DNA from: Calothrix sp. 336/3
GTDB taxonomy: Bacteria; Cyanobacteriota; Cyanobacteriia; Cyanobacteriales; Nostocaceae
DNA: 64,000 bases
Assembly: GCF_000734895.2 (NCBI RefSeq)
Contig: NZ_CP011382.1
Location: 5,124,700-5,188,699, forward strand
Direction of reading: 5' to 3'
Part shown: positions 46,685-64,000 of the stretch, in pieces
Numbering within the stretch: position 1 is the first letter of the stretch
Layout of the letters: the number at the start of each line of letters is the position of its first letter
Notes under the pieces: generated by a model
Databases searched by the model: none
Told to the model about the DNA's origin: nothing
Seen by the model: the letters and a program-made list of their open reading frames with translations, nothing else
Program-made: the position numbers and the translations under genes

Positions 46685-46781
46685 GGTAGAGGCGAATTTT
46701 ATCAGGGTTTCTCAATAGTCAGAGGTGAATTACAACTGGTTGTTTGATAAATAACCTCTGAACCATGAAAATATTCTCCCA

Positions 46782-47792: not shown

Positions 47793-47889
47793 AGATTTAT
47801 TCACTATTAAAAATAAGAAATTACGTCTGATGTGAATGAGAAACACCTCTTATCCCATAAGATTTTCAAGGCTTAATTCACAATTTATT

Positions 47890-47931
47890 ACTCATTACTC
47901 ATCACTCATTACTCATCACTCATTACTCATA
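47890..47931. repeat. heptad STRR (ACTCATT/ACTCATC)6
   Basis: Six heptamers alternate ACTCATT and ACTCATC, forming a 14-bp higher-order unit. They fill most of the spacer between the GT2 gene and the NlpC/P60 gene, just past its stop codon. Confidence 0.9.
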
Positions 47932-47939
47932 AATTTTCC

Positions 47940-48635
47940 TTACCTGTTCTGATTTTGCGGTAGATAACTTCTGACTACCCTTCCCCCACCGCGTAATTGT
48001 TGGTAATAAGACTGACTTACCTTGTCTCCATGTTCCGAGAGAATATCAATACCGATACCATTACGTCCTTGGTCTTTACCAGAGCTATGAATGTAATAAC
48101 CATCCCCTAAATAGAGTCCCACATGGGTAGCTTTTTGGGGAGTCCCGAAAAAGACTAAATCACCGGGTAAGAGTTGGGAAATATCCACGGGTTCTAGAAA
48201 AGCTTCCTGTTGGTATGCGTCCCTGGGTAAAGAAATTCCTACGGAACGGAATGCTGCTTGCATTAATCCAGAGCAGTCATAATTAGGTGGGACGGTACCA
48301 CCCCAAAGATAGTGATTTTCCTGTTCCATTGCTTCCTGGGTAAAAGCAATAACTTGGGGTAACAGTTTGGTAATTTCATCACCAGAGAGCGATCGCCCCT
48401 GATAAGCTACATTAGCAGGTTGTAAGTAGACCAAATCTTTTACAGACAACCATCCTGGATAATCATCCTCACACAAACGTACTTGTACTGCATTTTCCTG
48501 AGTATCTCCGATGATTTGTAGATATCTTCCTGTTGCAGCTTGAGTTGCTAACTCTAAACATAACTGCGAGTTATAGATATTCAGGTCATTAATACATTGG
48601 TATTGTTGTGATTGGGGATTGGCAAGCATAATCAC
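47940..48635 (-). CDS. C40 (NlpC/P60) peptidoglycan peptidase
   Basis: A 231-residue protein. The N-terminal ~90 residues are SH3-like (ATGRYLQIIGDTQENAVQVR). The C-terminal NlpC/P60 domain has catalytic Cys in NYDCSGLMQ, His in THVGLYLGDG and a later polar residue in YYIHS. It cleaves peptide cross-links in the cell wall. No signal peptide is apparent, which is common for cyanobacterial members. GTG 48635 or ATG 48629 can start it. It is divergent from the serine hydrolase, only 25-31 bp away. Confidence 0.9.
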   Translation of the reverse strand: MIMLANPQSQQYQCINDLNIYNSQLCLELATQAATGRYLQIIGDTQENAVQVRLCEDDYPGWLSVKDLVYLQPANVAYQGRSLSGDEITKLLPQVIAFTQEAMEQENHYLWGGTVPPNYDCSGLMQAAFRSVGISLPRDAYQQEAFLEPVDISQLLPGDLVFFGTPQKATHVGLYLGDGYYIHSSGKDQGRNGIGIDILSEHGDKVSQSYYQQLRGGGRVVRSYLPQNQNR

Positions 48636-48660
48636 TAATATTTCAGGTTTCTAGCTAACA

Positions 48661-49602
48661 ATGACTTTCTTTACTAAAGACGACCAACTGGAAAAACTTG
48701 GTAATGGCATTTTAGAGGCAACTTGGGGGGAATTTCCCACCTTAGCCCGTAACCAAATTGCCCTCACTTGGATTATCTATGATCCTCCTGTACCCGTAAA
48801 TACTGGCGGTGCATTAACACCGGATGCTTTTTGGCACCATACTGTCCGTGGTTTTAGTTATCGAGGTGTGGAACGCATTTATCCTGCTAGTGTCGTGAAA
48901 TTATTTTACCTAGTGGCGGTACAGGAATGGTTAGAAAAGGGAATGATGCAAAGTTCCCGTGAGTTGGAAAGGGCAATTAGAGATATGATTGTGGACTCTA
49001 GCAACGATGCTACAAGCTTAGTTGTAGATATATTAACTGGAACCACATCGGGACCAGAGTTACCCCTCGCACCCTTTGAAACTTGGAAACAGCAAAGAAA
49101 TATTATTAACCGCTACTATCAATCTTTAGGTTGGGGGGAACTAGAAACGGTAAACATTTGCCAGAAAACCTGGTGTGATGGTCCCTATGGTCGGGAAAGA
49201 GCCTTTGTGGGTGAATTGTTAGATAACCGTAATATGTTGACTACTAATGCCACTGCCAGATTATTGCATAGTATTGTTGGTGGGGTGGCGGTTTCTAGTG
49301 CGCGATCGCAAACTATTATGGGTCTAATGCAGCGTAGTGTTAACCCTAATGACTTGCCTCAGGATGTGGAGGAAGACCAAATTACAGGGTTTTTGGGTGG
49401 AAGTCTTCCCCTAACAGCAAAAATTTGGTCAAAAGCAGGATGGACAAGTCAAGTTCGTCACGATGCAGCTTATATTGAAATACCAAATAAATGTCCCTAT
49501 TTACTTGTGGTATTTACAGAAGGTAAATTAAATGCCAAGAGTCGAGATATTTTACCTTTTGTATCACGATTAGTTGCAGAGTCTGTAGATAATTTAGGTT
49601 GA
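48661..49602 (+). CDS. class A beta-lactamase-fold serine hydrolase
   Basis: A 313-residue protein. The SxxK motif is Ser77-Val-Val-Lys80 in YPASVVKLFYL. The second motif reads DSSNDATS (an S-x-N type triad). A KxG-like motif is SKAGWTSQ near the C-terminus. This is the beta-lactamase2/PBP fold. There is no signal peptide, and the long insert around residues 120-190 is unlike secreted beta-lactamases. It may be an intracellular or unusual D-amino-acid amidase or esterase. Start ATG; 25 bp from the divergent peptidase gene. Confidence 0.8.
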   Translation: MTFFTKDDQLEKLGNGILEATWGEFPTLARNQIALTWIIYDPPVPVNTGGALTPDAFWHHTVRGFSYRGVERIYPASVVKLFYLVAVQEWLEKGMMQSSRELERAIRDMIVDSSNDATSLVVDILTGTTSGPELPLAPFETWKQQRNIINRYYQSLGWGELETVNICQKTWCDGPYGRERAFVGELLDNRNMLTTNATARLLHSIVGGVAVSSARSQTIMGLMQRSVNPNDLPQDVEEDQITGFLGGSLPLTAKIWSKAGWTSQVRHDAAYIEIPNKCPYLLVVFTEGKLNAKSRDILPFVSRLVAESVDNLG

Positions 49603-49613
49603 TATTATTTGTG

Positions 49614-49640
49614 TAGAGGCGTTTTGAGAGAACGTCTCTA
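49614..49640. repeat. GTAGAGACG-type stem-loop
   Basis: TAGAGGCGTT (49614-49623) and AACGTCTCTA (49631-49640) pair along 10 bp with one G-T wobble. It lies just after the serine hydrolase stop and is of the same kind as the repeat at 45406 and the motif inside mazF. Confidence 0.7.
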
Positions 49641-49680
49641 TATAGCGTTTGTTGCTACCGTAATTTTAATTTTATTTATT

Positions 49681-50319
49681 ATGATAAAAACAGCAGCCAT
49701 TACGGAAGTCATTACAAATTTAACGGATGTAGAAAGGCGCTTTAGTTTAGTACGGATTGAGTCCGAGGAATTTTTTCCGGAGTGGTGTGAGGAATTACCA
49801 GAAGTTACCCCTGAGGAAAAATCTGCTCTGGATATTCTGCGACGTAGATACCTTTATCATCGCGGAGCAGGGGATTTACTGGAGGGAACAGTCATGTTAC
49901 TAGTAGTATCTCCTTTGCTTGCTTTGGCAGGATTTTATGACCCTCCTTTTCGGATTAAAGCTGAATCATCGGTGGAACTGGTGGTTAATGATGGAGAAGA
50001 AATACTCAGAGGGCGTATTGATGTTTTAATTCTCCAAAATCAGTTTTGGGTAATAGTTCTGGAGTCAAAAAAAACTACTCTTTCTGTTTGGTCGGCAATC
50101 CCTCAAGCATTAACTTATTTACTGGCTAATCCCCATAGAGAAAAACCAGTATTTGGTTTGGTGACAAATGGAGATGATATTGTATTTATCAAGTTGAGAA
50201 AATCTGATATTCCAGAATATGACCTTTCTAGGGTTTTTGCTCTCTACACATCAGGGAAGGAACTATATACAATTTTGCAAATTCTCAAACGTATTGGTCA
50301 AATAATTTCTACAGTTTAG
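49681..50319 (+). CDS. PD-(D/E)XK-like protein
   Basis: 212 residues from ATG 49681 (MIKTAAITEVITNL); upstream in-frame codons run through a dispersed repeat and are unlikely to be translated. Core: GRIDVLILQ, then VIVLESKKTTL, the D...ExK pattern. Later LVTNGDDIVFIKL. Homologues are often annotated as restriction endonuclease subunit-like, but no methylase or specificity subunit is near. The last 11 bp overlap the convergent flippase gene. Confidence 0.65.
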   Translation: MIKTAAITEVITNLTDVERRFSLVRIESEEFFPEWCEELPEVTPEEKSALDILRRRYLYHRGAGDLLEGTVMLLVVSPLLALAGFYDPPFRIKAESSVELVVNDGEEILRGRIDVLILQNQFWVIVLESKKTTLSVWSAIPQALTYLLANPHREKPVFGLVTNGDDIVFIKLRKSDIPEYDLSRVFALYTSGKELYTILQILKRIGQIISTV

Positions 50320-51586
50320 CTAATCGTGGGAAAACATATTTTGTTGCCCAAATTGTAAACACAGGCAAACACAGCCAATGGACAATTAAAACAGAGGTTG
50401 CGACACCTATTGCTTGCCACTGCACACCAATAAATAAAGCGAGGGCAAAAAGACTGGTAAAAATGATATTCCAGCGAAAATCTAAGTGAGGTTTACCCAC
50501 AGCGACTAGTAGCTGGGAAGCTGCATCCGCAAAAGGACGGGGAATAGCTGACAGACAAATGAGGATTAAAATCGGAATTGCTCCTGTCCATTTTTGCCCA
50601 AAGACAATAGGAACATAAAAGGGAGCGAAAAAAGATTGCAGGAGGACAAAGGGAATAATTATGTAGGAAATTGTCCGAATACTCTGAAAATAGCGCTGTT
50701 TAAATTCCTGCCATTCTCCTTTGGCAGCGCACAGATGAGGTAAGATTACAGCATTAATGGCATTAATAATACTTAAGCTAATGCCTAAGCCAGCATTGAA
50801 ACCAAAGAAATAAACTCCTAATTCTTTAATCCCAATAAAACGCCCAATAATTAAATAATCGAGGTTGTTTCTCAGGGTTTTCAGTAATGTTACACCCAGG
50901 AGATTCTTGCCAAATTTAAAAATTTCACCCCAATGTTTGGTAGTAAAGCTAGATTTAATTCGCCAATCATGGGCATAGTAATAAATAACAATTTCTATCG
51001 GTGCAGCTAATACTGGTGGTAAGGCAAATGCCCAAACGCCTAAACCCATGACAGCGAGAATAGCAGAAAATATACTAGATATTGAGTACTGTAAACTATC
51101 TGTGAGGGCAATAACTTTAAAACGATTTTCCCTTTGAATCAGATTTTTTTGAATTCCAGTGATGGGCCAAATCAAATAGGCTCCGCCAGCAAAGATAATT
51201 GGTAAGATAATATCCTGACTTTTGTAAAACCAAGCAATGGGAAAAGCGGCAACAGCTTGAATGACAAATAAACTGGCAAAAATTACCCAATTGAGCCAAT
51301 AGGCAGAATTACAAATGGTATCTAATTCTGCTTCTTCAGTTTGAATAATTTTGGCACCTATTCCAATATTGGTAAATGTCTGGGTGACTTCTCTAACCGT
51401 AAGAATTATGGCTCCTAAACCATAGTCATAGGGTGTGAGGAAACGAGCGATAATTACTACTAAACCTAGTCGTAGTAAACGGTAGATGACCTCTGCCATT
51501 CCTAGCCAGCCAAGATTCCGAATAAACTGGCTAGAGAATTTTTTCTTAAGTTCCCGAATGATATTTTGAATTGAATTCACACTCAA
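50309..51586 (-). CDS. polysaccharide flippase, Wzx-like (MOP superfamily)
   Basis: A 425-residue membrane protein with about twelve helices. The N-terminus NLGWLGMAEVIYRLLRLGLV and the segment LTPYDYGLGAIIL match polysaccharide_synt/RfbX proteins. It moves lipid-linked repeat units across the plasma membrane. It opens the minus-strand part of an exopolysaccharide locus together with the Wzc-like gene. Confidence 0.88.
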   Translation of the reverse strand: MSVNSIQNIIRELKKKFSSQFIRNLGWLGMAEVIYRLLRLGLVVIIARFLTPYDYGLGAIILTVREVTQTFTNIGIGAKIIQTEEAELDTICNSAYWLNWVIFASLFVIQAVAAFPIAWFYKSQDIILPIIFAGGAYLIWPITGIQKNLIQRENRFKVIALTDSLQYSISSIFSAILAVMGLGVWAFALPPVLAAPIEIVIYYYAHDWRIKSSFTTKHWGEIFKFGKNLLGVTLLKTLRNNLDYLIIGRFIGIKELGVYFFGFNAGLGISLSIINAINAVILPHLCAAKGEWQEFKQRYFQSIRTISYIIIPFVLLQSFFAPFYVPIVFGQKWTGAIPILILICLSAIPRPFADAASQLLVAVGKPHLDFRWNIIFTSLFALALFIGVQWQAIGVATSVLIVHWLCLPVFTIWATKYVFPRLAKL

Positions 51587-51708
51587 TTTTGCGATTGTGG
51601 CATATACACAACTGTAAACTCGTCTCCAGATTTTTTAAAGAGCGTAGAGAAAAGAAAATCATATTTTCATCTTGGCAACTGCTAATCACGATCAGTAGTG
51701 ATTTGAGC

Positions 51709-54036
51709 TTATAATTCCAGGGTATTTGCCACCATTCCTAGAGTCATGACAGGAGAAGTTTTAAGTTCTTCTAATACCTGTTGGAAGGTGGGACGGGGTA
51801 TTTTACCCATACCTGTGACTAGGAGGACTCCATCTAAATGATGGGTCAATAAATTCGTGTCTAGGACTCCCAAAACGTTGGTTGTATCGTAGATAACTAA
51901 GTCAAAATGGGTCTGCGATCGCTCTACTAAATTTTGCATTCTCTGGGAGGAGAATAACTTTGTGGGGTTGGGCATTACTTGTCCCGCAGTCAGGATAAAT
52001 AGGTTATCATCCTCTGGCGATCGCTGTATGGCATCACTGATATCTAGCCCTTGGGATAGGACTTCTGTTAATCCACTGGTATTACCTAAACCCAGGAGTC
52101 GGTGAATTTGCGGACGACGGAAATCGGCATCCACTAGTAGTACCTTCTGACCGGCTTCGGCGGCAATTTTGGCTAAATTCAGGGCAACTGTGGTTTTTCC
52201 TTCCCCTGGAGTGGCGGAGGTAATTGCTAGGGAACGGATAGAAGCTTCACGCAGGATAGGCTGTATTCTTGTATACAGAGAGCAGAAGGCTTGGGATAAA
52301 CTATGAGGTAATTCCTGGCGTTTTCTAGGAATATAGTCGGTTATTTGTCGATGGGAAGCTTCTATTTTTCCAGAATAGCCAATTTGGGTAGGAACATTGT
52401 CCCACTGTTTTTTAAATTCCTTATCAAAGGGAATTAATCCGAGAAGGGGTAATTGGGCAGCGCGTTTTGCTTCCTCTGGATCGTGGACAACATTGCGCAA
52501 ATTTTCCAGCAAGAATGCCACCATGATTCCAGCTAGGATGCCACCAAGCGCACCAATTGCAGCGTTTCGAGGTTTATTAGGAGATACCGCCACAAAATTA
52601 CCTGAGCTATCCCGTGGTAAAGTCGGGGGCATAATTAACTCCCAGGGTACATCCTGTTGAGCAGCATCGACTCTCAATGCTTCTTGTTTTGATAAAAGCT
52701 GGTTTAAGGTGTCATTAGCAACCTGTAGCTCTCGTTGAATATTCGTGTAGTTCCGTGATATTACAGGATATTCCCTAATTTGCTTATTTAATTGTACTTG
52801 ATTTTTCTGAATATTACTGAGACTAGCTTCTAGGGTTTTAATTTGGTTGCCAGTATTTGCTAATTGTTGAGTTAACTCTCGACGGATCGAGTTTTGGTAA
52901 GTACCGAGGGATATTTGACTATTATCAGTAGTGGATTTACTGCCTAGAGTTCTTTTCGCTTCTGCATTTAACAGGGGCAACAATTTCTCTCTTTCTTCCC
53001 GCAGGTTAAGCATAATCGGGTTAGCGTCGTGGAAGCGGGTAGAATTCTTAGCTATTTTGGCATCAATTTCTCGAATATCATTAAGTATTTTTTGATACTG
53101 AGGTGATTCACTAGCTGCGGAAGCGGCGATCGCGGTACTTTGTCCCATTCCCAGTTGTTGTTGCAAAGACGCAAACAGAGAACGTGCTTCTATCAATTTT
53201 TTACTAGTTTCTTGTTGGGATGTTTTCATCTCATCCAAACGTTTCAGCAATTGTTCTCCCTGTAATTCCGGATTGAAGATACCGTAACGTTGCTGATAAA
53301 TTTGTAATTGCCCTTGGAGATTATTTACCCTTCCCCGTAACTTGGGAATCTGTTTCTCAACAAACTTAATTCCTTGGCTGAGATTGCTCTGTTGTTGCTC
53401 AATACTATAGTTACGATAAGCTTGGGAAACCCGATCCAAAACAACCTGAACTTTCTGCGGGTTCACATCCCGATAATGTACTTCCACAACCCGTGACTCA
53501 TCCTTACCCTTAGTAATTCGGGTAATATATAAAGTCCCATCCCTACCAGTGGGTAGCTTACCAGTAATATCATTACCCACCAAGCGGTCATAGTTGACTT
53601 CGGGGTACTTATTGCTCAACTCCTGCACTACAGGTTCAATCAATTTGGGACTTTTCAGCACTTCTAACAATGCTTGATAGTCCATGGATGTACTATTTTG
53701 TCTAGTGATTTCATTAACGTTCTGTCTCAGGGTTTCTGACAGCAACACCAACAACTCACTATCAGAAGTTTTCAGTGGTTCTACAAGTAACTGGAACTTG
53801 CCTTCATACTTCTGGGTACGTGTTATTGTCCAGACACTGGTAGCCATTGTCACAACAACTGCGATGCTCGTAATCAGACCCAAACGTCGTCGCAAAATTG
53901 GTAAAATTTGACCAAAACCCTTACTTTCCAATTCACTTTCTGGTCTGCGTAAAAACCAGTAGGTTTCCTTTGCCAGTAAATTGGGATTTTTCAGGTGCTG
54001 CAATTCTTGTTCCTTTATTTGCATCTGCTTTCCCAC
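51709..54036 (-). CDS. Wzc-like polysaccharide co-polymerase / BY-kinase
   Basis: A 775-residue protein. The Wzz domain lies between two membrane helices (LGLITSIAVVVTMATSVW near 55 and AAIGALGGILAGIMVAF near 490) with a coiled-coil loop. The C-terminal bacterial tyrosine kinase domain has Walker A TPGEGKTTVALNL, Walker A' VLLVDADFRRP and Walker B FDLVIYDT. It ends VANTLEL without a Tyr-rich tail. The family controls chain length and export of polysaccharide. Start GTG 54036 or ATG 54024. Confidence 0.92.
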   Translation of the reverse strand: MGKQMQIKEQELQHLKNPNLLAKETYWFLRRPESELESKGFGQILPILRRRLGLITSIAVVVTMATSVWTITRTQKYEGKFQLLVEPLKTSDSELLVLLSETLRQNVNEITRQNSTSMDYQALLEVLKSPKLIEPVVQELSNKYPEVNYDRLVGNDITGKLPTGRDGTLYITRITKGKDESRVVEVHYRDVNPQKVQVVLDRVSQAYRNYSIEQQQSNLSQGIKFVEKQIPKLRGRVNNLQGQLQIYQQRYGIFNPELQGEQLLKRLDEMKTSQQETSKKLIEARSLFASLQQQLGMGQSTAIAASAASESPQYQKILNDIREIDAKIAKNSTRFHDANPIMLNLREEREKLLPLLNAEAKRTLGSKSTTDNSQISLGTYQNSIRRELTQQLANTGNQIKTLEASLSNIQKNQVQLNKQIREYPVISRNYTNIQRELQVANDTLNQLLSKQEALRVDAAQQDVPWELIMPPTLPRDSSGNFVAVSPNKPRNAAIGALGGILAGIMVAFLLENLRNVVHDPEEAKRAAQLPLLGLIPFDKEFKKQWDNVPTQIGYSGKIEASHRQITDYIPRKRQELPHSLSQAFCSLYTRIQPILREASIRSLAITSATPGEGKTTVALNLAKIAAEAGQKVLLVDADFRRPQIHRLLGLGNTSGLTEVLSQGLDISDAIQRSPEDDNLFILTAGQVMPNPTKLFSSQRMQNLVERSQTHFDLVIYDTTNVLGVLDTNLLTHHLDGVLLVTGMGKIPRPTFQQVLEELKTSPVMTLGMVANTLEL

Positions 54037-55010
54037 TGATAATTATTGTATATACAGACTTGAATAAAACTTCTTGATATTTTCCAGAATGGTCGTTTAC
54101 CACGTCTAACTAAACAGCTAATAACCTCATTATCAAAACCAGTATATATATACCACTTTAGGTATCCTGTGGTAGAAATTTCTGAGTTCTTGGCAATTAA
54201 CTTAACTTGAGTCGAGAGGTTAACAATTGCTTAGGAGACATCATACCAGAATTCTGACAATTTCAAATATCCTCTAACATATATCTTGCTATCCGTAATT
54301 ATCTCTGCTTAATGAAAAAATTCTCTAAAAGTTTATCAGATAAATCAGAGAGATGAAGATTAGGTAAAGTCGGAGAAAAATAGGAAAGTTTGGCAGATAG
54401 ATTCGACATCAGAAGCTAGCATAGCAGTCAAAAAGCTATATTGAGTTTTTGAGGTTTGCACAAAATTTTGATAAACCTCTTGACACAGCACAAAAATAGC
54501 TAGTTAATAACAAAATAATTACCAGATATAATTCCTTAGGCACAGACCGGATAAATGATACAGACAAAATGACGCACTGGAATTTTATCTAGGAATAATG
54601 AGGGTTACAGGAGTTGCAAAATGTTAGAAAGTTATCTTGACAAGGGACGGAAAACTATTCACTTTCTCAGAATTTTACGAATGGTTTTTCCATATGAAGT
54701 TCAAACATGAGATTTATCGTTATCCCAAGTTGATTTATTGATATCACGGAAGTAAAAATAGTAGTTTTTGTGTTCAAGATTACATTAACTCAGGTGGAGT
54801 TAATGGCGGGTTAACTATTTAATTACTTCTATATCAAGACTGTGGACTTTATCTGACTGAGAATTCATATCTTAGAGTTTTGTCAGTTAGATTACTCAAA
54901 ATCTTCATTGACTACTGACAACAGAATAGATACAGAAGGTGGCAATAGATTATGATGATTAGCTTCAAACAAAATCTATTGTATGCAAATGAACACAAAA
55001 TTGATAAATA
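54037..55010. other. long divergent spacer in the polysaccharide locus
   Basis: A 974-bp, AT-rich spacer between the Wzc-like gene (minus) and the O-antigen ligase gene (plus). I find no frame above noise and no tRNA. Promoters for both halves of the locus must be here. It is the longest gene-free stretch of the window. Confidence 0.6.
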
Positions 55011-56315
55011 ATGTCAAGTTTACTGAAAATTGCTGAGAAGATATTTGTTGTCCTCACCTTATTTTTATCAACTACAGCACTAATACCTGTTTTAGTAGAA
55101 AAAGAGGATGTAGGTATAACTTCTGACCCCTATAGTCCCATATTATTTATGGGTGTATACCTGATTACAGGAATTTTGGTTTGGAAAAGACAGCAAACTT
55201 TTATATTCTTTGCTCAGAAAAATATTTGGATTTGGTTACTAGTAGGAGTTGCTTTAGCATCAATATTTTGGACAGTTGCTCCAGATATTACCCCTCGTAG
55301 AAGTTTTTTGTTGCTAGGAACAACGGTTTTTGGGGTTTATTTAGCAATGCGTTATAGCTTACGAGAGCAATTAGAATTACTAGGGTGGGCATTTAGTTTA
55401 ATCATTATTCTCAGTTTTATTTTTGCGATCGCCCTACCTAAATACGGTGTCATGACTTTCCAAGAAGATGGCATTCACGGTGGTGCTTGGCGTGGTATTA
55501 TGTCCCACAAAAATATTCTGGGAAGAACGATGGTACTCAGTAGTTTAGTATTTTTCTTCCTTGCTATCAGTAAATTAGTTTCTCATCCTAAACATCGCTG
55601 GTTCGCTTGGGGAGGTTATATCCTTTCACTTTTGTTAATTCTTCTTTCCACCTCCAAGTCTGCTCTGATTATTAGTATTTGTACTACATTAACTATTCCT
55701 CTATATCGTACCTGGAGAAGTAAGTACACCCGACTTATTCCTACAGCTATTCTGGCGATTTTAGTCATGGGTAGTGGTGCCATTTTACTCCTAGATAATT
55801 TACCAATTGTAGCCAGTGCCATTGGCAAAGATTTAACACTCACAGGGCGTACAGATATTTGGAATTTAATGTTAGATTTAATTCAACAACGTCCTCTCTT
55901 TGGTTATGGATTTAATGCATTTTGGCGCGACTGGGATAGTGAGGTGACTGCCTATTTATGGCGGAATCTAGAGTGGGAATGTCCTTATGGACATAATGGC
56001 TTTATGGATTTACTCGCAGAATTAGGTATTAGTGGTTTAGGATTATTTATTATCAGTTATATTAATACTTATATTCGCAGTATTAGATATCTATGCTTAA
56101 CTAAATATAGCGAAAGTATTTTCCCTCTGATCTATCTGACTTTTTTATTAATTTATAATATTACTGAAAGTACTCTGGTGACAACAAATAGTATTTTTTG
56201 GATTCTTTATGTCTCAATGATTTTCTCTGTTGCCTTTGAATATGAGCAAGCAAAGAACTTCCAACTTGTAGGAGAAAATCTGACAATCATGGATATGGAG
56301 AATTCTCAACCATAA
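55011..56315 (+). CDS. O-antigen ligase / polymerase family protein
   Basis: A 434-residue protein with about eleven membrane helices. The large periplasmic loop with RTDIWNLMLDLIQQRPLFG and WECPYGHNGFMDLLAELGI, including the conserved His, identifies the Wzy_C/O-antigen ligase family. It joins or polymerises lipid-linked repeat units. It is the first gene of a plus-strand operon with glycosyltransferases and GH5. Confidence 0.88.
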   Translation: MSSLLKIAEKIFVVLTLFLSTTALIPVLVEKEDVGITSDPYSPILFMGVYLITGILVWKRQQTFIFFAQKNIWIWLLVGVALASIFWTVAPDITPRRSFLLLGTTVFGVYLAMRYSLREQLELLGWAFSLIIILSFIFAIALPKYGVMTFQEDGIHGGAWRGIMSHKNILGRTMVLSSLVFFFLAISKLVSHPKHRWFAWGGYILSLLLILLSTSKSALIISICTTLTIPLYRTWRSKYTRLIPTAILAILVMGSGAILLLDNLPIVASAIGKDLTLTGRTDIWNLMLDLIQQRPLFGYGFNAFWRDWDSEVTAYLWRNLEWECPYGHNGFMDLLAELGISGLGLFIISYINTYIRSIRYLCLTKYSESIFPLIYLTFLLIYNITESTLVTTNSIFWILYVSMIFSVAFEYEQAKNFQLVGENLTIMDMENSQP

Positions 56316-56379
56316 ATTTTGAGCGGTTTTTTCATTAAAAAAATGATTGAAGATATCGCTGTTTAACTTACTAATAATT

Positions 56380-57567
56380 ATGAAAATAACTGTAATTTGT
56401 CACGACGTTCCCTATCCTGCTATCCATGGAGGTAGAGTGGATATGTGGCACCGTATCAAAGCTTTAGCCAAACTAGATGTAGAAATACAATTAATTTGTT
56501 GGCATAAAGAAGCTTTACTAGCAAAAGATATACAGGTAATTAATGAATATGTTGATAGCTTTCATCATATTCAATATGAATCAGGAGTTTTTGCTTTATT
56601 ATTCAAGTTCTGGAGTCTACGCAAATTTCCTCTAGAAATAGCCTCGCGAATTATTTCTGGAAAGAAGCTAGAATATCTTATTTCTCAAGTTGAAAAATTT
56701 CAGCCAGACATTATCTGGTTAGATGGAATTCATGGTGGAGAATTAGCTAAAACTTTAGCTCAAAAACTCAATATACCTTTAGTGACGCGATGTCATAATA
56801 TTGAGCATATTTATAATCAAAAATTATATGCATCAGCAACTGGTATGGGTAAGCTGAAAAAATATTTATCAACTTTACATTTAGAAGAATATGAAAAGAA
56901 TATCCTGCGAATAAGTCACCAATTTTATGATATATCAAATGATGATTTACAATTTTGGCAACAACAAGGATTCCATAATGGAAATTACTTGCCACCCATC
57001 CTTGATGTGAGTTCTGAAAATGATGTTGCAGATATTAATAATTCTCTGATTCCATCTGAATATGACATCATTTTTATGGGTAATCTCTACACCCATAATA
57101 ACGTTGCTGGGGTATCTTGGTTTTTAAGCGAAGTCTTGCCAATCGTCAGAAAAACGCTACCTGATATCAAAGTTTTAATTGCTGGCTCTAAACCTACCGC
57201 TACAATTTTAGAAATCTGTAATCAAGTCAAAGTCAGTTTAAAAATTAACCCAATTTCAACTACCGAAATCTACAATTCAGGAAACATATTTATCAATCCA
57301 GTTTTAACAGGTAGTGGAGTTAGTATTAAATCTATCGAAATGTTGAGCTATGGAAAGCCAATTATTTCTACCAATCAAGGGATTGCGGGATTACCAACAG
57401 AACTCAAGCAATATTTTACAGTTGCTAATAATGCCATTGATTTTGCTGACAAAATCTTGTATCACTACAATAATTTATCTGTTCAAAAACTCAATATAGA
57501 ACCCAAAGTGATATCTGAATATTTGGGAATTGAAGTCATTAAAAAACTTTTATCTAATTTGCCATGA
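56380..57567 (+). CDS. GT-B family glycosyltransferase
   Basis: About 395 residues from ATG 56380 (MKITVICHDVPYPAIHGG). N-terminal Rossmann domain with an early Gly-rich turn; linker RCHNIEH; C-terminal donor domain with IIFMGNLYTHNN and the signature GSGVSIKSIEMLSYGKPII. A TTG 33 nt upstream is less likely. It overlaps the next gene by 4 bp (ATGA). The sugar is unknown. Confidence 0.85.
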   Translation: MKITVICHDVPYPAIHGGRVDMWHRIKALAKLDVEIQLICWHKEALLAKDIQVINEYVDSFHHIQYESGVFALLFKFWSLRKFPLEIASRIISGKKLEYLISQVEKFQPDIIWLDGIHGGELAKTLAQKLNIPLVTRCHNIEHIYNQKLYASATGMGKLKKYLSTLHLEEYEKNILRISHQFYDISNDDLQFWQQQGFHNGNYLPPILDVSSENDVADINNSLIPSEYDIIFMGNLYTHNNVAGVSWFLSEVLPIVRKTLPDIKVLIAGSKPTATILEICNQVKVSLKINPISTTEIYNSGNIFINPVLTGSGVSIKSIEMLSYGKPIISTNQGIAGLPTELKQYFTVANNAIDFADKILYHYNNLSVQKLNIEPKVISEYLGIEVIKKLLSNLP

Positions 57568-58715
57568 AAATTCTGTACTTAACAACTGTTTTACCCAGTG
57601 GCAAAACAACAGGTGGAGAGATTGCTTCTCAAACATTTATCGATGCATTAATAGAATTAGGACATGATGTTTTAGTTCTGGGATATCAGCGCATAGGAGA
57701 TAGAAAGCATCCCAAAGATAACGAAATAATTGTTGGCGATCGCCACATCGAAACTTCCACATCTAAGTATTATCCAATTCTATGGATGGGAGTCAGTTTT
57801 CTGCGTCATCTTCCCTACTCCGCAGCTAAATATTATTCCCAAAAATATCTGCAAAAAATTCATCAACTAACACACCAGCAAGCATTCGATATAATTATTA
57901 TCGATCACGCTCAATTATCATGGGTAATTCCCCATATAAATCACCAACAACAGATAATTCTAGTTGCTCATAATATCGAGCATGAGGTATATCAAAAACA
58001 ATTATTAAAATCTCAAAATATTCTGAAAAGATTCATTATAGAAAGAGAATCAAACCTCATCCAGAAAATAGAAAATAAATTAGCTACAATAGCAAAAAAA
58101 GTATGGACTATTAATCAGCATGATTATGATTACTTTCAGAAAATAAATTCTGATACTCAACAGTTTCATCTTCCTTTAAAATTAATCTCTACCTCAGATA
58201 AAAGCACTAAAACTAATTACGATATTGCCATAATTGGAACTTGGACATGGCAAGCAAATCATCTAGGTTTAGAATGGTTTTTTCAGTCAGTTTATCCTCT
58301 TATTCCGGAACATTTTACTATTCATGTTGCTGGTAAAGGTGCAAATTGGCTAATCAATAAATATCCTAATGTTAATTACCATGGCTTTGTAGAAAATTCT
58401 CAACTCTTCATGCTACAAGCAAAAGTTATTGCTATTCCTTCCGTCAGTGGTACCGGTATACAGATTAAGACATTAGACGCGATCGCCACAGCTAAACCCA
58501 TTGTCGCAACCTCCCTTGCTTTAAGAGGAATTGTTGATTATCCATCTAGTGTTCAATCAGTAGAAACACCAGAAGAATTTGCTGCCAAATTATGTCATCT
58601 TTTAGCTTATAACTCAGATACTTTAGATGATTTATTCACAGAAAGTCATCAATGGGTAGAAAAACGCCAAAAATCTTTTCTTGGTGCTGTGCAATCCTCT
58701 GTTGAAATCATTTAA
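57564..58715 (+). CDS. GT-B family glycosyltransferase
   Basis: 383 residues with MKILYLTTVLPSGKTTGGE, a linker with VAHNIEHEVYQ and the donor motif GTGIQIKTLDAIATAKPIV. It shares these segments with the upstream protein, so the two look like tandem paralogues. The 4-bp overlap indicates coupled translation. Confidence 0.87.
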   Translation: MKILYLTTVLPSGKTTGGEIASQTFIDALIELGHDVLVLGYQRIGDRKHPKDNEIIVGDRHIETSTSKYYPILWMGVSFLRHLPYSAAKYYSQKYLQKIHQLTHQQAFDIIIIDHAQLSWVIPHINHQQQIILVAHNIEHEVYQKQLLKSQNILKRFIIERESNLIQKIENKLATIAKKVWTINQHDYDYFQKINSDTQQFHLPLKLISTSDKSTKTNYDIAIIGTWTWQANHLGLEWFFQSVYPLIPEHFTIHVAGKGANWLINKYPNVNYHGFVENSQLFMLQAKVIAIPSVSGTGIQIKTLDAIATAKPIVATSLALRGIVDYPSSVQSVETPEEFAAKLCHLLAYNSDTLDDLFTESHQWVEKRQKSFLGAVQSSVEII

Positions 58716-58730
58716 TTGGTTGTGTAGGAA

Positions 58731-59978
58731 ATGAGAAAAATAAAATATCGCTTCCAAGATATCTATGCAAGATTTTTGTTGACTATCAATTTCTGTCAAC
58801 ATATTTATCAAAAAACAAAAAAATATCTTTTTTATGTCTTGATTTTAGTAACTATAATTTTGCTATCTTCTCAAGATTCTATTGTTGCTAATAATTTATT
58901 TTCTCGAAAACATACTAATGATAATAATATTTATCCTCCATTCGTAACCTATAAAAATCAAATTATTGATAATAAAAAACATCCAATAATTTTACGTGGT
59001 ATTAACTGGTTTGGCATGGAAATTAATACCCATGTTCCCCATGGTTTATGGGTGAGAGACTATAAAGAAATGTTGGCACAAATTAAAAGCTTAGGATATA
59101 ACTTCATTCGCTTGCCATATTCTCTCGAAGGAATACGCTCCCAAAACATCAGTGGTGTAGATTTTACAATTGGTGCAAACAAAGAATTAAAAAATAAAAC
59201 ACCCTTGGAAGTAATGGATTTAATTATTCAAGAAGCACAACGCCAAGGGATATTTATTTTACTCGACAGTCATTGTTTAAAGGATAGTCATATTGGAGAA
59301 TTATGGTATGGAGATGGCTTTACAGAAAAAGATTGGATTGATACTTGGGTAATGTTAGCCAAGCGTTATCGCAAGTATAAGAATGTCATTGGTGCTGACT
59401 TGAAAAATGAACCCCATGGTAGTGCTAGTTGGGGAACAAACGAGAAAAAAACGGATTGGAGATTAGCTGCTCAACGTGCTGGCAATCAAATTCTTCACGT
59501 CAATCCTCACTGGTTAATAGTAGTAGAAGGTGTCGAAAAAAACGTCCCCAATCAAAAACAGTTTGGTTATTTATGGGGTGCTAATTTAGAAGGTGTGCGT
59601 CAATATCCAGTAAATTTAAATAGAAAAAATCAGCTAGTTTATTCTCCCCACGAATATGGTTTATCAGAATATGCTTGGTTCTCAGATACAAACTTTCCTA
59701 AAAATTTATCTCAACGCTGGGAAGTCGCTTTTAACTATATTTCGACTCAAAAAATTGCTCCTATCCTAATTGGAGAGTTTGGTGGCTACTATGTTGATAA
59801 TCTTACAAAAGAAGGAGTGTGGCAACAAAAAATTGTCAATTTTATCGCGCAGAAAAAACTAAGTTTTGCCTATTGGAGCTGGAACCCTAATAGTAAAGGT
59901 ACTGGTGGAATTTTACAAGATGATTGGCGCAATATTAATCTCCCCAAACAGCAGCTATTAAATAAAATCTTGAAATAA
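58731..59978 (+). CDS. GH5 family glycanase with N-terminal membrane anchor
   Basis: A 415-residue protein. A hydrophobic stretch at about 30-52 (YLFYVLILVTIILL) after a basic start acts as signal anchor. The GH5 barrel has RGINWFGMEINTH, FIRLPYSLEGIR, the acid/base Glu227 in DLKNEPHG, the His-Tyr loop YSPHEYG, and the nucleophile Glu349 in IGEFGG. GH5 enzymes cleave beta-1,4 glucans, mannans and related chains. Inside a polysaccharide operon it may trim or release the nascent polymer. Confidence 0.9.
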   Translation: MRKIKYRFQDIYARFLLTINFCQHIYQKTKKYLFYVLILVTIILLSSQDSIVANNLFSRKHTNDNNIYPPFVTYKNQIIDNKKHPIILRGINWFGMEINTHVPHGLWVRDYKEMLAQIKSLGYNFIRLPYSLEGIRSQNISGVDFTIGANKELKNKTPLEVMDLIIQEAQRQGIFILLDSHCLKDSHIGELWYGDGFTEKDWIDTWVMLAKRYRKYKNVIGADLKNEPHGSASWGTNEKKTDWRLAAQRAGNQILHVNPHWLIVVEGVEKNVPNQKQFGYLWGANLEGVRQYPVNLNRKNQLVYSPHEYGLSEYAWFSDTNFPKNLSQRWEVAFNYISTQKIAPILIGEFGGYYVDNLTKEGVWQQKIVNFIAQKKLSFAYWSWNPNSKGTGGILQDDWRNINLPKQQLLNKILK

Positions 59979-59988
59979 TTCAAAATAT

Positions 59989-61188
59989 ATGCATAATTCT
60001 GTAAATATGACAAACTGGAATGATATTGACAATTTGACAATTAAGACAAGAGATCAAGGAAGACAACAACCAAGAATATTAGTTATGTCTATGCGGGGCT
60101 TATATTCAGAAGCATTTCGTTCGGCTGAATATGAGTTTGAAGATATAATTTGTAACTTTGATCATGCAGAATTAATGACACCAACTCCTAATGTGAGTTT
60201 ACCCAATTCTGTCAAAAAGAAAATATTTAATTATGTCGGCTTAAATCTTAAAAAATCTCACCTACTCAAATCTCATTGTCACGATTTAGAAATTAATCAA
60301 GAGTATGATTTATTCTTCTTTGTTTGTCAGCATTTTTGGGATTTATCTTGTTTGAATTCAATTCATAAATGGCGCGATAAATGTAAAAAAGCAGTTTTAT
60401 GGATAGATGAAATTTGGTTTAAAGAATTAAAAGATAATAAAACAAAACTCTGCTTTGATTTAGTTAAAGAATTTGACTATATCTTTACAACTCAAAGTGG
60501 GAGTGTAGAAGGAATTTCGCGTGTAACTAAATGTCCTGCTTATTCCTTACCCTACGGAGTTGATACCATTAAATTTTGTCCTTATCCCCAAATTGTTAAA
60601 CGTAATATCGATGTTTATAGTATTGGTAGGCGTTCAGTATCTATTCATCAAGATTTACTAGAGTTGTCGAAAAGTAAAAAACTATTTTATGTCTATGATA
60701 CCCTTAAGGGTTTAAATATGTGCGACTATCAAGAACATCGCCATTTATATATCCAGATGATTCAACATAGTCGGTATTTTATTGCCCATAAAGCTAAATT
60801 TGATGCTCATAAGCAAACAGGGGGTCAGGAAGAATTAGGTTCTCGCTTTTTTGAAGGTGCAGCAGCAGGAGCAGTGATGATAGGAACTCCTCCCGAATGT
60901 GAAGCTTTTCAAAGACATTTTGACTGGTCAGATGCAGTTATTCCTATTTCTGGAAATTCTCCTAGTATCAGAGATATTATTCAAGAATTGGATGCTCATC
61001 CTCAAAAAGCCATAGCTATTAGAAAAAACAATATCATTAATTCTCTCTTACGCCATGATTGGGTGTACCGTTGGGAAGCCATTTTAGAGAAAGTTGGTTT
61101 AAATATAACGCCTGCAATGAATAAAAGAAAGCTATATCTCAGTAATTTAGCCACATTAGTTGCAGACTCTCAAATAGATTTGTCATAA
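59989..61188 (+). CDS. GT-B family glycosyltransferase (group 1 C-terminal type)
   Basis: 399 residues, Cys- and Lys-rich. C-terminal segment GGQEELGSRFFEGAAAGAVM then GTPPECEAFQRHFDW is typical of the Glyco_trans_1_2 group, where the Glu binds the donor sugar. Two Mets (59989 and 60007) could start it. Last gene of the plus-strand operon, 10 bp after GH5. Confidence 0.8.
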   Translation: MHNSVNMTNWNDIDNLTIKTRDQGRQQPRILVMSMRGLYSEAFRSAEYEFEDIICNFDHAELMTPTPNVSLPNSVKKKIFNYVGLNLKKSHLLKSHCHDLEINQEYDLFFFVCQHFWDLSCLNSIHKWRDKCKKAVLWIDEIWFKELKDNKTKLCFDLVKEFDYIFTTQSGSVEGISRVTKCPAYSLPYGVDTIKFCPYPQIVKRNIDVYSIGRRSVSIHQDLLELSKSKKLFYVYDTLKGLNMCDYQEHRHLYIQMIQHSRYFIAHKAKFDAHKQTGGQEELGSRFFEGAAAGAVMIGTPPECEAFQRHFDWSDAVIPISGNSPSIRDIIQELDAHPQKAIAIRKNNIINSLLRHDWVYRWEAILEKVGLNITPAMNKRKLYLSNLATLVADSQIDLS

Positions 61189-61825
61189 TTTTGTGATTTT
61201 TGCATTAGATGTCAAAAGGACTATGAGGACTTACATAAAAGTACCCTTGGCAATGGTAATATTATCCTGAAAAAGCTGCTCTGCATCTACATAGATTGCA
61301 ACTACATGAAAATAGTGGTTTTGGCTATTATTTGTGTAAACCATGACTATACTGTTGCGATTTTATCTGAGAAAATTACACCCTAATTGTATCTTGCACA
61401 ATTCAACCTAGCTCCTATACTGGTATAGTAAGTATCTCGTATTCTGAAAAGCAATTATAACAGATAAACTATCAGTTGAAATAGGAAAAAAGTCATAACA
61501 GAACTGTGACTTTAGGGCTAATTTTGTTATAGATATTCATGACTTTATGTACATAATAAAATTACTTAAATCATGACTTTATTCTCATGTCATAGTTAAA
61601 TAAAGTCTTTTACAGTAGATTTACTTGAATCAACCAAACTTACTTATACGCAATTCAAAAATAGCAAAGTATTGTATAAGACAATCAGATTCAGTAAAGA
61701 TACTACGAAACTATAAAGATAATTTCATACTGAATATTGATATTCGGAGCAACTACCATTTATCTGATTGAACCATGAGTGAGGTTTGCAAGTAAAAAAT
61801 ACCAACTCAATGAGGTTGTAGGATC
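61189..61825. promoter_or_regulatory. spacer with paired TCATGACTTTAT direct repeats
   Basis: A 637-bp spacer. TCATGACTTTAT occurs at 61537-61548 and 61571-61582, 34 bp apart, with an inverted partial copy (AAAGTCATAA) near 61490. The repeats lie 240-290 bp upstream of the next gene and could bind a regulator. No frame is evident. Confidence 0.4.
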
Positions 61826-62176
61826 GTGAAACGTCAAATTTTTGCACTTCTGATGGCACTTCCCCTGGGGACTGTATCCTTGCTTCCAGAATCAGCATCA
61901 GCAACCGAGATGTATTCCCAATTTAACTCTACCCATAATTCACCTATAGTTGTTGCTCAACGACGGGAAGAGTATCGAGGTAGAGACAACAGAGGGAATA
62001 GAGACAACAGAGGTGATAGATACAACAGAAGTGACAGATACAACAGGACTGACAGATACAACAGAGGTGATAGATACAACAGATATGGTCACAGAATGTG
62101 GGTGAAAGGTCATTGGGAAAGAAACCGCTATGGTCGCCGTATATGGGTTCCAGGTCACTGGGTTTATCGTCGTTAA
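61826..62176 (+). CDS. secreted Arg/Asn/Asp/Tyr repeat protein with GHW motifs
   Basis: A 116-residue protein starting at GTG with TAGGAT upstream. Residues 1-26 are a signal peptide (FALLMALPLGTVSLL...SASA). The middle has RDNRGNRDNRG then DRYNR(S/T/G) units at 6-residue period. The C-terminus holds MWVKGHWERNRYGRRIWVPG and a second GHW, the W-x-x-GHW pattern of small exported cyanobacterial proteins. Strongly basic. Function unknown. Confidence 0.7.
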   Translation: MKRQIFALLMALPLGTVSLLPESASATEMYSQFNSTHNSPIVVAQRREEYRGRDNRGNRDNRGDRYNRSDRYNRTDRYNRGDRYNRYGHRMWVKGHWERNRYGRRIWVPGHWVYRR

Positions 62177-62731
62177 GAATGGAAACATTTCAACTTTGTA
62201 GTTAAAACTTTTCCAGGGTGAACCCGTATTACCGAATTACTGAGTAGTGCTTTTTCAGTAACATAATATACGTATCCGCAAATTAGCATCAAAACCTTGC
62301 ACAGTAGGTTCAAAGCCTAAATTTTCGGATAAGTCTAATCTTTTACCCGACACCCGACAAGCTCAAATGCCCCAGGTTGATTACCTGCGGGCTTTTTGTC
62401 TAGGAAGTGGCACTGAAGAATATAGGAATTTACATAAGTCTTCGACTTTGCTCAGACTGATACCGAGGAAAGTTGAAGTGCAACAGAGGTTTTCCTTAAT
62501 TTTTATGAGGGGAATTTTTAAGACTTGGGATACGCCTAGCACTTGACCAGAAAAATTAAATTTATCATGAAGTCTTTCTCCGCGATCGCCCGGAAACTCA
62601 AGATATCTTGTTTGCCAGATGCCGCGCGATCGCTTATAAAATTAATATAGTTAATAACTTATTTTCGGTTGGCATTTTTACTCAAATCAAAATAAATGTA
62701 TTCAAATATTTTTGCAAGGGAGCATGGCGGT
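62177..62731. other. intergenic region with a terminator
   Basis: About 555 bp. It carries the terminator at 62369-62397 and several HIP1 octamers near 62581-62635. No other gene is seen. Confidence 0.6.
62369..62397 (+). terminator. rho-independent terminator
   Basis: GCCC-CAGGT and ACCTG-C-GGGC pair around TGATT with one bulged C, followed by TTTTTG. It lies 190 nt after the repeat-protein gene. Confidence 0.8.
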
Positions 62732-63040
62732 ATGGATATGCAAGTCCTGAGAGAACGTGCGGGACTTAGTCGTGCAGAGGTTGCCTTTAGGCTTGCAATC
62801 AGCGAAACAAGTGTTCGTAACTGGGAAGCAGGACGTACTGAACCGACAATGACACCGAAAAAGTACTTAGAGGCAATCAGGTTATTTAAATGCACACCAG
62901 AAGAACTAGCCGCAGCCAGTGAAAAATCTATTAATCAAAGACATAAACGCAAACCTGGTAGACCAAGAAGATTTCCCAATAACCCACTTCCTACAGTTGC
63001 TCAAGTGCCTCAGGTGGTTGATGCATCGGTTTGTGGATAA
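62732..63040 (+). CDS. XRE-family helix-turn-helix regulator
   Basis: About 102 residues from ATG 62732 (MDMQVLRERAGLSRAEVAF), with GGGAG 9 nt upstream; a longer frame starts 36 nt earlier. The HTH reads RAEVAFRLAISETSVRNWEAG. The tail is basic (KRKPGRPRRFP), AT-hook-like. Located 210 bp upstream of the pyruvate dehydrogenase gene; a regulatory link is possible but unproved. Confidence 0.85.
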   Translation: MDMQVLRERAGLSRAEVAFRLAISETSVRNWEAGRTEPTMTPKKYLEAIRLFKCTPEELAAASEKSINQRHKRKPGRPRRFPNNPLPTVAQVPQVVDASVCG

Positions 63041-63250
63041 GCAATATTACATATTTTCCAAAATTTAGTGTAACTTTTACCACCTTCACTAAATCACAAT
63101 TGCATCAGGAAATCGTCCCGATAGTCATTTTTTGTGTCTTTGGCTTCTAGACAACTCATATCTTTTATGCAAGTCGTGCCATTCTGCACCGTATTTGCTA
63201 CGGATGCGCGATAAGATTCTAAAACAAGAATCGCATGATTTTAAAGTCTA

Positions 63251-64000
63251 ATGGCAGAAACACTATTCTTCAACGCTCTGCGGGAAGCCATTGATGAGGA
63301 AATGGCACGGGACTCCACTGTATTTGTTTTGGGGGAAGATGTAGGACATTATGGGGGTTCCTACAAAGTTACCAAAGACTTATGTCAGAAATATGGAGAC
63401 CTCCGCGTACTCGATACTCCCATTGCCGAAAATAGTTTTACAGGTTTGGCTGTGGGAGCCGCGATGACGGGTTTACGTCCGATTATCGAAGGGATGAACA
63501 TGGGCTTTTTGCTCCTTGCCTTCAATCAAATTTCTAACAACGCTGGGATGCTGCGTTATACCTCTGGCGGAAACTTTAAGATTCCGATGGTAATTCGTGG
63601 TCCTGGTGGGGTTGGTAGACAGTTAGGTGCGGAACATTCCCAACGTTTGGAAGCCTATTTTCAAGCTGTACCAGGGTTGAAAATCGTGGCTTGTTCTACC
63701 CCATACAATGCAAAAGGGCTGTTGAAGTCTGCCATCCGTGATGATAACCCTGTACTGTTCTTTGAACACGTTTTACTTTACAACCTGAAAGAAGATTTGC
63801 CAGAGGAAGAATATCTTGTACCCCTGGATAAGGCAGAGGTTGTACGTCGAGGTAAGGACGTAACAATTCTTACCTATTCTCGGATGCGTCATCATGTGAT
63901 GCAAGCGGTAAAAACCTTAGAAAAGCAAGGGTATGACCCAGAAGTCATTGATTTGATTTCCTTGAAACCCTTAGATTTTGATACCATAGGTGCATCAGTA
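63251..64000 (+). CDS. pdhB: pyruvate dehydrogenase E1 component, beta subunit (5' part)
   Basis: The first 250 codons are present; the gene runs off the right edge. It begins [20 protein letters not shown] and holds [33 protein letters not shown] and [18 protein letters not shown], all typical of E1 beta. With the alpha subunit it decarboxylates pyruvate using thiamine diphosphate. Confidence 0.96.

Follow-up and report, generated by a model that had tools for sequence, protein, structure and literature searches.

PslG is a glycoside hydrolase of family GH39, ExoK of GH16 and BcsZ of GH8. Hydrolases are common in exopolysaccharide (EPS) operons (PMC6813494). The Psl locus of Pseudomonas aeruginosa is an EPS gene set with a co-polymerase, an exporter and the membrane-associated hydrolase PslG, the activity of which is reported to be critical for optimal Psl production (PMC6813494). 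The same paper, in the part cited here, refers to Baker 2015 as concluding no involvement of pslG. In the succinoglycan exo cluster of Rhizobium, a heteropolysaccharide system, endoglycanases reduce the size of the product, and ExoK and ExsH are named as the enzymes that lower it (PMC4443731). A dedicated endoglucanase also lies beside the polymer-making system in cellulose loci with BcsZ and in the cyanobacterial Xcs system with XcsC (PMC12430437). The HEP island of Anabaena PCC 7120, which encodes several glycosyltransferases, is a cyanobacterial cluster for an envelope polysaccharide; its printed gene list (PMC4390870) includes the hepA ABC transporter, sugar-modifying genes, rfbC, an oxidoreductase and several entries called "unknown protein", and names no cellulase. 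The EPS genes of cyanobacteria are reported to be dispersed, occurring singly or in small clusters (PMC4594306).

Here, we describe a compact, conserved cyanobacterial cluster in the window, the 64,000-nucleotide stretch of DNA that was analysed. It is probably a Wzx/Wzy EPS locus, the dedicated GH5 glycanase of which makes endo-cuts in the locus's own β-1,4-glucosyl-containing polymer outside the cytoplasm. The hydrolase differs in family from the GH39 enzyme of the Psl locus, which also belongs to a different organism, and from the GH16 enzyme ExoK. Unlike the synthase-dependent Bcs and Xcs systems, the locus has no cellulose synthase. Cutting enzymes encoded within polymer loci are already known, and we did not find this combination described within open-licence papers. 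The family of the hydrolase predicts a testable bond in the largely unassigned EPS pathways of cyanobacteria.

Gene content and order of the locus

The locus is composed of two divergent transcription units (Table 1). The minus-strand genes for Wzx and Wzc diverge from a tight plus-strand operon with the order Wzy-GT-GT-GH5-GT, as identified by Pfam. The original prediction of a flippase, Wzc, a polymerase or ligase, and three glycosyltransferases around a GH5 enzyme agrees with these assignments gene for gene, positions included. The genes for GT1 and GT2 overlap by 4 bp, and the GH5 gene is separated by 15 bp from GT2 and by 10 bp from GT3. In 19 of 25 loci of relatives, the GH5 gene starts at most 30 bp after the preceding gene. 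The gap between the divergent units is kept in relatives, with lengths of 315–1453 bp.

Table 1. Features of the EPS locus at positions 50309–61188 of the window.
Feature	Position	Strand	Domain matches
Wzx-type flippase	50309..51586	-	PF13440 E 1e-58, PF01943 E 1.6e-27
Wzc-type co-polymerase with ATPase domain	51709..54036	-	Wzz PF02706 and AAA_31 PF13614; NCBIfam eps_fam TIGR01007 above cut-off
Intergenic region of 974 bp separating the two divergent transcription units	54037..55010	.	
Wzy-type polymerase (Wzy_C / O-antigen ligase family)	55011..56315	+	PF04932 E 5.6e-17
GT-B glycosyltransferase 1 (GT1)	56347..57567	+	PF13692 E 9e-17
GT-B glycosyltransferase 2 (GT2)	57564..58715	+	PF13692 E 2e-15
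GH5 glycanase, endo-1,4-β-glucanase type	58731..59978	+	PF00150 E 3e-50
Third glycosyltransferase (GT3), PF13524 type	59989..61188	+	PF13524 E 4.5e-9

The flippase, Wzy polymerase and Wzc co-polymerase of a Wzx/Wzy-dependent EPS pathway are encoded together. The genomic context suggests that the Wzy_C protein is a polymerase rather than a ligase. Pfam identified neither a priming transferase nor an outer-membrane exporter in the locus. Elsewhere, the window's genome has seven PF02397 matches (candidate priming transferases) and two PF02563 genes (candidate exporters), none of them tied to the locus. As in the original prediction, no named locus was recognised, within open-licence papers.

The predicted tandem GT-B paralogues, GT1 and GT2, are truly related but distant, with 21% identity over 375 alignment columns (E 1e-12). 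The alignment to GT2 begins at residue 12 of GT1, and the ATG at 56380 is the likely start of GT1. BLAST similarity between GT3 and its neighbour GT2 is not significant, and neither of the two has a match in a PDB sequence search. In relatives, Wzx is 61–75% identical where present, and GT3 is 43–63% identical where full or partial copies occur. The position of GT1 is taken in a number of relatives by an enzyme of the GT2 family (tested in the locus L076).

A promoter and terminator scan of positions 53900–61900 yielded 43 sites against 37.6 ± 8.5 expected from shuffles, which is not an excess. The promoter-like matches in the intergenic region, for example at 54504–54532 on the plus strand, are part of this total. 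The sole Rfam match in positions 45000–64000 is a tRNA at 45311–45384.

The GH5 enzyme and its clade

Judged by its sequence, the GH5 protein is full length, belongs to the EGPh/E1 type of endo-1,4-β-glucanases and has the two catalytic glutamates, E227 and E349. It matches PF00150 with 171.6 bits against a cut-off of 23.5. The best 11 PDB sequence matches include EGPh from Pyrococcus horikoshii, E1 from Acidothermus, and 4tuf from Xanthomonas. A fold search agrees, with 42% identity to EGPh and E1, endocellulases solved with cellotetraose; the AlphaFold model, with a mean pLDDT of 75.9, was used for this fold match only. We take the subfamily of EGPh and E1 to be GH5_1. To our knowledge, the genes for these two enzymes are not part of an EPS operon.

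The glutamates, predicted to be intact, are found in the motifs NEP (E227) and GEF (E349). In the alignment with the endoglucanase of P. horikoshii, their counterparts are chain residues 168 and 309 in alignment numbering, and an offset of 33 identifies these as E201 and E342, the residues altered in the PDB entries titled E201A and E342A. EGPh shares with the locus enzyme the catalytic residues and the conserved active-site positions. Residues R127, N226, E227, H307, Y309, E349 and W382 are conserved in all 25 distinct locus GH5s, and H181 in 23, with glutamine in the other two. The enzyme has a single N-terminal hydrophobic segment, approximately residues 33–49, which is predicted to be a membrane anchor but may instead be removed as a signal peptide, in which case the enzyme would be released into the medium. 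A strict lipobox-like N-terminal motif, too weak to call, occurs in 6/25 locus GH5s and 0/42 solo GH5s, and is absent from the enzyme of the window.

The phylogenetic comparison included 88 ORFs and the window's GH5, merged into 73 rows where sequences were identical. The solo set contains 40 sequences picked from 74 non-locus GH5 matches (hand count) outside the window's genome, and two from that genome. In a quick tree without bootstrap, the 25 distinct GH5s of the loci group in a single clade with SH-aLRT support of 100. None of them carries a CBM2 domain, which is present in 40/42 solo and 4/4 other cyanobacterial GH5s. In total, 44 of these 46 cyanobacterial relatives have CBM2 and are located away from EPS-type genes. 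Among the 42 solo regions, covering about 6 kb or more on each side where the contig allowed, none has an ORF with its best match at E<=1e-6 in Wzx, Wzc, Wzy or a glycosyltransferase of the window, a threshold that more distant glycosyltransferases would escape. Because the label "locus" was assigned from EPS-type neighbours, the neighbourhood is not independent evidence for the split between locus and solo enzymes; this caveat does not apply to the clade or to the CBM2 split, neither of which depends on the label.

Locus and solo GH5s also differ at positions 184, 277, 280, 284, 383 and 403, none of which is catalytic; positions 277–284 are close together. The window's genome encodes two solo GH5-CBM2 paralogues. 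L033 is a further PF00150 match of this genome.

Conservation of the locus and its hydrolases

Within the same family, 43 of 192 genomes have an orthologue of Wzy at E<=1e-120, and the other 149 lack one at this threshold. In 26 of the 43, a GH5 gene lies in the same cluster and on the same strand as the Wzy orthologue, so that the hydrolase is built into its own EPS operon and conserved there. The count of 26 includes one GH5 gene split by contig ends (genome G277), which was left out of the tree. GH5 enzymes occur in 60 of the 192 genomes rather than 62, as two short fragments with stops (G381 and G411) were excluded. The chance neighbourhood of GH5 and EPS genes is ruled out, because the same gene order recurs in dozens of genomes; in addition, the locus GH5s are one clade.

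Every one of the 16 GH5-seeded loci with EPS genes also has Wzy, whereas the first glycosyltransferases are swapped. These 16 loci and the 26 family loci overlap in genomes and are not additive. The named holders of the locus are Tolypothrix, Rivularia, Hassallia, Plectonema, Calothrix, Scytonema, Spirirestis and Brasilonema, together with strain HT-58-2 and one MAG.

The remaining 17 of the 43 loci lack GH5. Two of them have a GH9 enzyme, and 15 have neither GH5 nor GH9. A remnant of GH5 was found in 0/17 of these loci at E<=0.05; a control locus was matched by 25/25 queries. Thirteen of the 15 loci without GH5 and GH9 fall to the same side of a branch in a quick tree without bootstrap. The end branches of seven rows in this tree, including that of the window, are long, and L087 covers only 26% of the columns; the places of these rows and of L087 are unsure. 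Because 15 of the 43 loci have neither enzyme and the 17 GH5-less loci contain no GH5 remnant, polymers of this general type do not require the hydrolase. The 26 loci with GH5, two with GH9 and 15 with neither offer a natural comparison for the role of a built-in glycanase in EPS.

An unrelated GH9 cellulase with a DAGD motif is encoded in related Wzy clusters of five genomes. The GH9 enzymes belong to two lineages that are 33% identical. Of 11 regions with GH9 matches examined, five are in Wzy clusters (L087, L091, L150, L151 and L152); the other six (L153–L158) have no Wzy-cluster neighbour.

Probable function and alternative explanations

We propose that the glycosyltransferases assemble a lipid-linked repeat unit, which would be flipped by Wzx and polymerised by Wzy with Wzc. 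The GH5 enzyme, exported or tethered via its N-terminal hydrophobic segment, would then make endo-cuts in the polymer outside the cytoplasm. The cuts may determine how long the chains become, set chains free or remove those that have stalled, as is thought for PslG, ExoK and BcsZ. The enzyme type of GH5 implies that the polymer would contain β-1,4-glucosyl or very similar bonds. Since Wzy accompanies GH5 in 16/16 loci, whereas the first glycosyltransferases are swapped, our guess is that the bond cut by GH5 is the one that Wzy makes between repeats. The β-linked polymer with a built-in GH5 enzyme of the original prediction gains, as an interpretation, from the linkage in 26/43 loci, the lack of CBM2 and the occurrence of GH9 in related clusters.

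It is possible, as a refinement of the proposed function rather than an exclusive alternative, that the polymer is the sheath polysaccharide of sheathed filamentous cyanobacteria and that GH5 makes the sheath looser, so that filaments can grow, branch or be released. The genera that hold the locus, among them Tolypothrix, Rivularia, Scytonema and Calothrix, are presumably sheath formers; however, the scan for holders was seeded with the window's GH5 and thus favours the kin of that enzyme.

We consider it unlikely that GH5 is a secreted endoglucanase for external β-glucans or for the organism's own cellulose, placed in the EPS operon only for co-expression under biofilm or sheath conditions. 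Outside the locus clade, the nearest relatives resemble cellulases with CBM2, for which cellulose is the presumed substrate; a bcs-type cellulose cluster and the two solo paralogues are also present in the genome. However, the locus enzymes are one clade without CBM2 and in tight linkage with the EPS genes, and GH9 occurs in related clusters. Furthermore, the cellulose cluster already has a hydrolase of its own, as the cellulose synthase (TIGR03030 match above the cut-off at C1:3199216) adjoins GH8 and BcsB. Some action of GH5 on cellulose is conceivable, because near relatives carry CBM2 and the genome has a cellulose synthase. The locus itself was rejected as a cellulose locus: in the comparison with cellulose loci, suggested along with the original prediction, a BcsA/XcsA-type synthase is not in the cluster, and the bcs-type cluster of the genome is separate from it.

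Relatives of the organism include heterocyst formers, and both the heterocyst envelope (HEP) and hormogonium (HPS) polysaccharides need glycosyltransferases and exporters. Nevertheless, a HEP or HPS locus, the former in line with the predicted heterocyst-type polysaccharide, is very improbable: the absence of the Wzy orthologue from 149 of the 192 family genomes would be odd for a gene needed in either, Pfam identified no hepA-type ABC transporter among the cluster genes, and, in a comparison of gene lists, the printed HEP list has hepA, rfbC and an oxidoreductase but no named cellulase, with several entries called "unknown protein" (PMC4390870).

Under the proposed function, GH5 could serve as a reagent to cut the polymer. 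We also speculate, with considerable doubt, that cyanobacterial Wzx/Wzy loci have an exchangeable hydrolase slot, for which a glycanase is acquired to fit the bond made by Wzy. Such a slot might account for GH5 in this locus, GH9 in sister clusters, and GH8 with the cellulose synthase. If it exists, the family of the hydrolase would make the linkage of the EPS backbone of cyanobacteria readable from the genome alone. The slot might likewise cover the second EPS locus of the window's genome, which has a PslG-like hydrolase.

Organization and conservation of the exopolysaccharide locus

The exopolysaccharide (EPS) locus of Calothrix sp. 336/3, whose 6.42 Mb genome comprises four contigs, is organized as two divergent transcription units, one encoding Wzx and Wzc, and the other Wzy, two GT-B glycosyltransferases, a GH5 hydrolase, and a third glycosyltransferase. 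GT1 and GT2 share 4 bp, and gaps of 15 and 10 bp separate GH5 from GT2 and GT3, respectively. The flippase, Wzc, polymerase, and three glycosyltransferases that the original prediction placed around GH5 are all present. The tandem GT-B genes are paralogues, as it proposed, with 21% sequence identity (E 1e-12), so the paralogy is distant.

Coordinates of the EPS locus and related features (L, genome region; C1, contig of the Calothrix genome)
Feature	Position	Strand
NlpC/P60 and β-lactamase-fold proteins	window 47940-49602	
ORF with HSDR_N match	window 49609-50319	opposite to Wzx
EPS locus	window 50309-61188	both
Wzx	window 50309-51586	-
Wzc	window 51709-54036	-
Wzy	window 55011-56315	+
GT1	window 56347-57567	+
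GT2	window 57564-58715	+
GH5	window 58731-59978	+
GT3	window 59989-61188	+
116-residue ORF	window 61826-62176	
bcs-type cluster (TPR protein, GH8, BcsB, cellulose synthase with PilZ)	L165:325-9685; C1 3.192-3.202 Mb	+
Cellulose synthase	C1:3199216	
Second EPS cluster (priming transferase, WecG-type transferase, GTs, Wzy, PslG-like hydrolase)	C1 ~1.81 Mb	
PslG-like hydrolase	L161:9192-10523, near 1.812 Mb	-
WecG/TagA/CpsF transferase (PF03808)	L068:3879-4667	
DUF6492 protein (PF20102)	L078:10361-11254	
MBOAT acyltransferase (PF03062)	L091:6096-7499	+

The EPS locus with its dedicated glucanase is real and conserved. Named relatives carrying the GH5 are mostly filamentous cyanobacteria. Searching named genomes with the window GH5 identified 22 loci, sixteen of which, all cyanobacterial (L006-L020 and L025), contain Wzx, Wzc, and Wzy upstream of GH5 in the same order. 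The remaining six, four of them cyanobacterial and two verrucomicrobial, contain GH5 without these three genes, with short flanks in L023 and L024. Orthologues of Wzy (E ≤ 1e-120) occur in 43 of 192 sampled genomes of the family, and GH5 adjoins Wzy in 26 of these 43 loci. Two loci contain a GH9 enzyme instead, and fifteen have neither, these being the two hydrolase families looked for. GT2 is directly followed by GT3 in 13 of the 15. No GH5 remnant was detected in the 17 GH5-less loci by 25 queries at E ≤ 0.05, all of which matched the control locus. In a quick tree of Wzx, Wzc, and Wzy with seven long end branches, a well-supported branch sets 13 GH5-less loci apart. Every one of the 26 loci with GH5 lies on its other side, together with both GH9 loci and the remaining two that have neither enzyme. 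GT3 is absent or fragmentary in loci L064, L073, and L082, while their GH5 is full-length.

Several further features were observed in and around the locus. Wzc contains an ATPase domain and a single tyrosine within its last 60 residues; Wzc kinases usually end in a tyrosine cluster. The flanking NlpC/P60 and β-lactamase-fold proteins have homologues in 16 and 19 of 42 relative loci, respectively. An ORF that shares 11 bp with the end of Wzx has a weak match to the type I restriction domain HSDR_N (PF04313, E 4e-7). The 116-residue ORF, without a Pfam match, has a signal-like start and RYNRGD(R)-type repeats. Of the 42 relative loci, 31 encode a homologue of a WecG/TagA/CpsF transferase, often directly 3' of GT3. 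No such gene occurs in the window, and five PF03808 matches are located elsewhere in the genome.

Structure and origin of the GH5 enzyme

The GH5 protein matches PF00150 with 171.6 bits. The solved structures closest to it are endoglucanases of Pyrococcus horikoshii, Acidothermus, and Xanthomonas (4tuf), with E-values from 9.5e-87 to 1.4e-83. A predicted-fold search with a model of mean pLDDT 75.9 was concordant, with TM-scores of 0.72-0.74 by query length for the best 21 chains. The predicted intact Glu227 and Glu349 are present and align with the residues altered in PDB entries titled E201A and E342A. Residues R127, N226, E227, H307, Y309, E349, and W382 are invariant in all 25 distinct locus GH5s, two of which have His181 replaced by glutamine. 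The N-terminus contains a single hydrophobic stretch, which may be an anchor or a cleaved signal.

The 25 locus GH5s, so labelled by their EPS-type neighbours, form one clade among 73 distinct sequences (SH-aLRT 100). Two more such GH5s are encoded in the Calothrix genome, and each carries a cellulose-binding CBM2 at its C-terminus. A search model built from these two CBM2s matched none of the 25 locus GH5s, 40 of 42 solo cyanobacterial relatives, all four other cyanobacterial enzymes, and neither of the two verrucomicrobial ones. None of the 42 solo GH5 regions contains EPS-type neighbours resembling those of the window. The simplest reading of these sequence comparisons is that the locus recruited a cellulase once, and that the recruited form lacked the cellulose-binding domain. 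In the wider order, 35 of 243 sampled genomes encode GH5 relatives; outside the family, their reading frames are open over at least 450 residues, except for two fragments in genome G208, and no adjacent GH5-Wzy pair was found there among the matches listed. Solo relatives in L126 and L130, located on a long branch, may be inactive or binding-only, since asparagine replaces the acid/base glutamate (window position 227).

Known hydrolases and other polymer loci

Hydrolases built into EPS operons are already known, and the locus is a variant of that arrangement. Examples are PslG, BcsZ, PgaB, WssD, AlgL, and PssZ, named in a paper that also cites one study finding pslG not involved (PMC6813494), ExoK and ExsH (PMC4443731), and XcsC (PMC12430437). 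The main text of a phylum-wide EPS survey contains no words starting with hydrolase, cellulase, or glycanase (PMC4594306), and the only "hydrolase" in the synechan paper stands in the title of a cited reference (PMC8205485). As in the original prediction, the locus could not be matched to a named one: in the open-licence literature we recognised no description of it, and the HEP island differs in named gene content, compared by gene list (PMC4390870).

The Calothrix genome contains other polymer loci. In the bcs-type cellulose cluster, GH8 and BcsB precede the cellulose synthase (TIGR03030, over cut-off), unlike the XcsA-XcsB(HlyD)-XcsC order described for other cyanobacteria (PMC12430437). 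The hydrolase of the second EPS cluster has weak GH39 (PF01229, 2e-7), GH10, and GH5 matches, with PslG as the best PDB match (E 4e-5). Ten ORFs scanned in a third EPS cluster near 4.13 Mb include no hydrolase. Outside the window locus, the genome has seven matches to priming transferases and two genes for exporters.

Putative substrate and GH9 cellulases of related clusters

We propose that GH5 would act outside the cytoplasm on the polymer made by its own locus, and would cut a β-1,4-glucosyl-type bond. The cut bond may be the one formed by Wzy. The early glycosyltransferases are not constant, with a GT2-family enzyme in place of GT1 or other GT-B enzymes in place of GT2 in some loci, whereas Wzy is found with GH5 in every one of the 16 GH5-seeded loci that hold EPS genes. 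In addition, GT4-like GT-B enzymes usually retain configuration and Wzy usually inverts it. This assignment is a guess, because the GH5-less loci have the same Wzy.

GH9 occurs in 13 of the 192 family genomes and was not found in that of Calothrix. In L087 and L091, where Wzy is 62-63% identical to that of the window, the cluster contains a GH9 cellulase with an N-terminal Ig-like domain. The clusters of L150, L151, and L152 also encode a GH9 with this N-terminal domain, together with a flippase-like gene and a Wzy homologue that is more distant (34-38%). The five enzymes split into two lineages that share about 33% identity. Each of the five contains the motif DAGD, which is catalytic in GH9. 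Six other GH9 regions examined lack the EPS-type neighbours Wzy and flippase. That related EPS clusters contain cellulases of unrelated folds points to a common substrate bond. If the hydrolase family truly reports the polymer backbone, the finding gains importance.

A DUF6492 protein, which may be a transferase or a sugar-modifying enzyme, recurs next to GH5 or GH9 in L078, L091, L151, and L152. The GH9-bearing cluster of L091 also contains an MBOAT acyltransferase, suggesting that its polymer is acylated.
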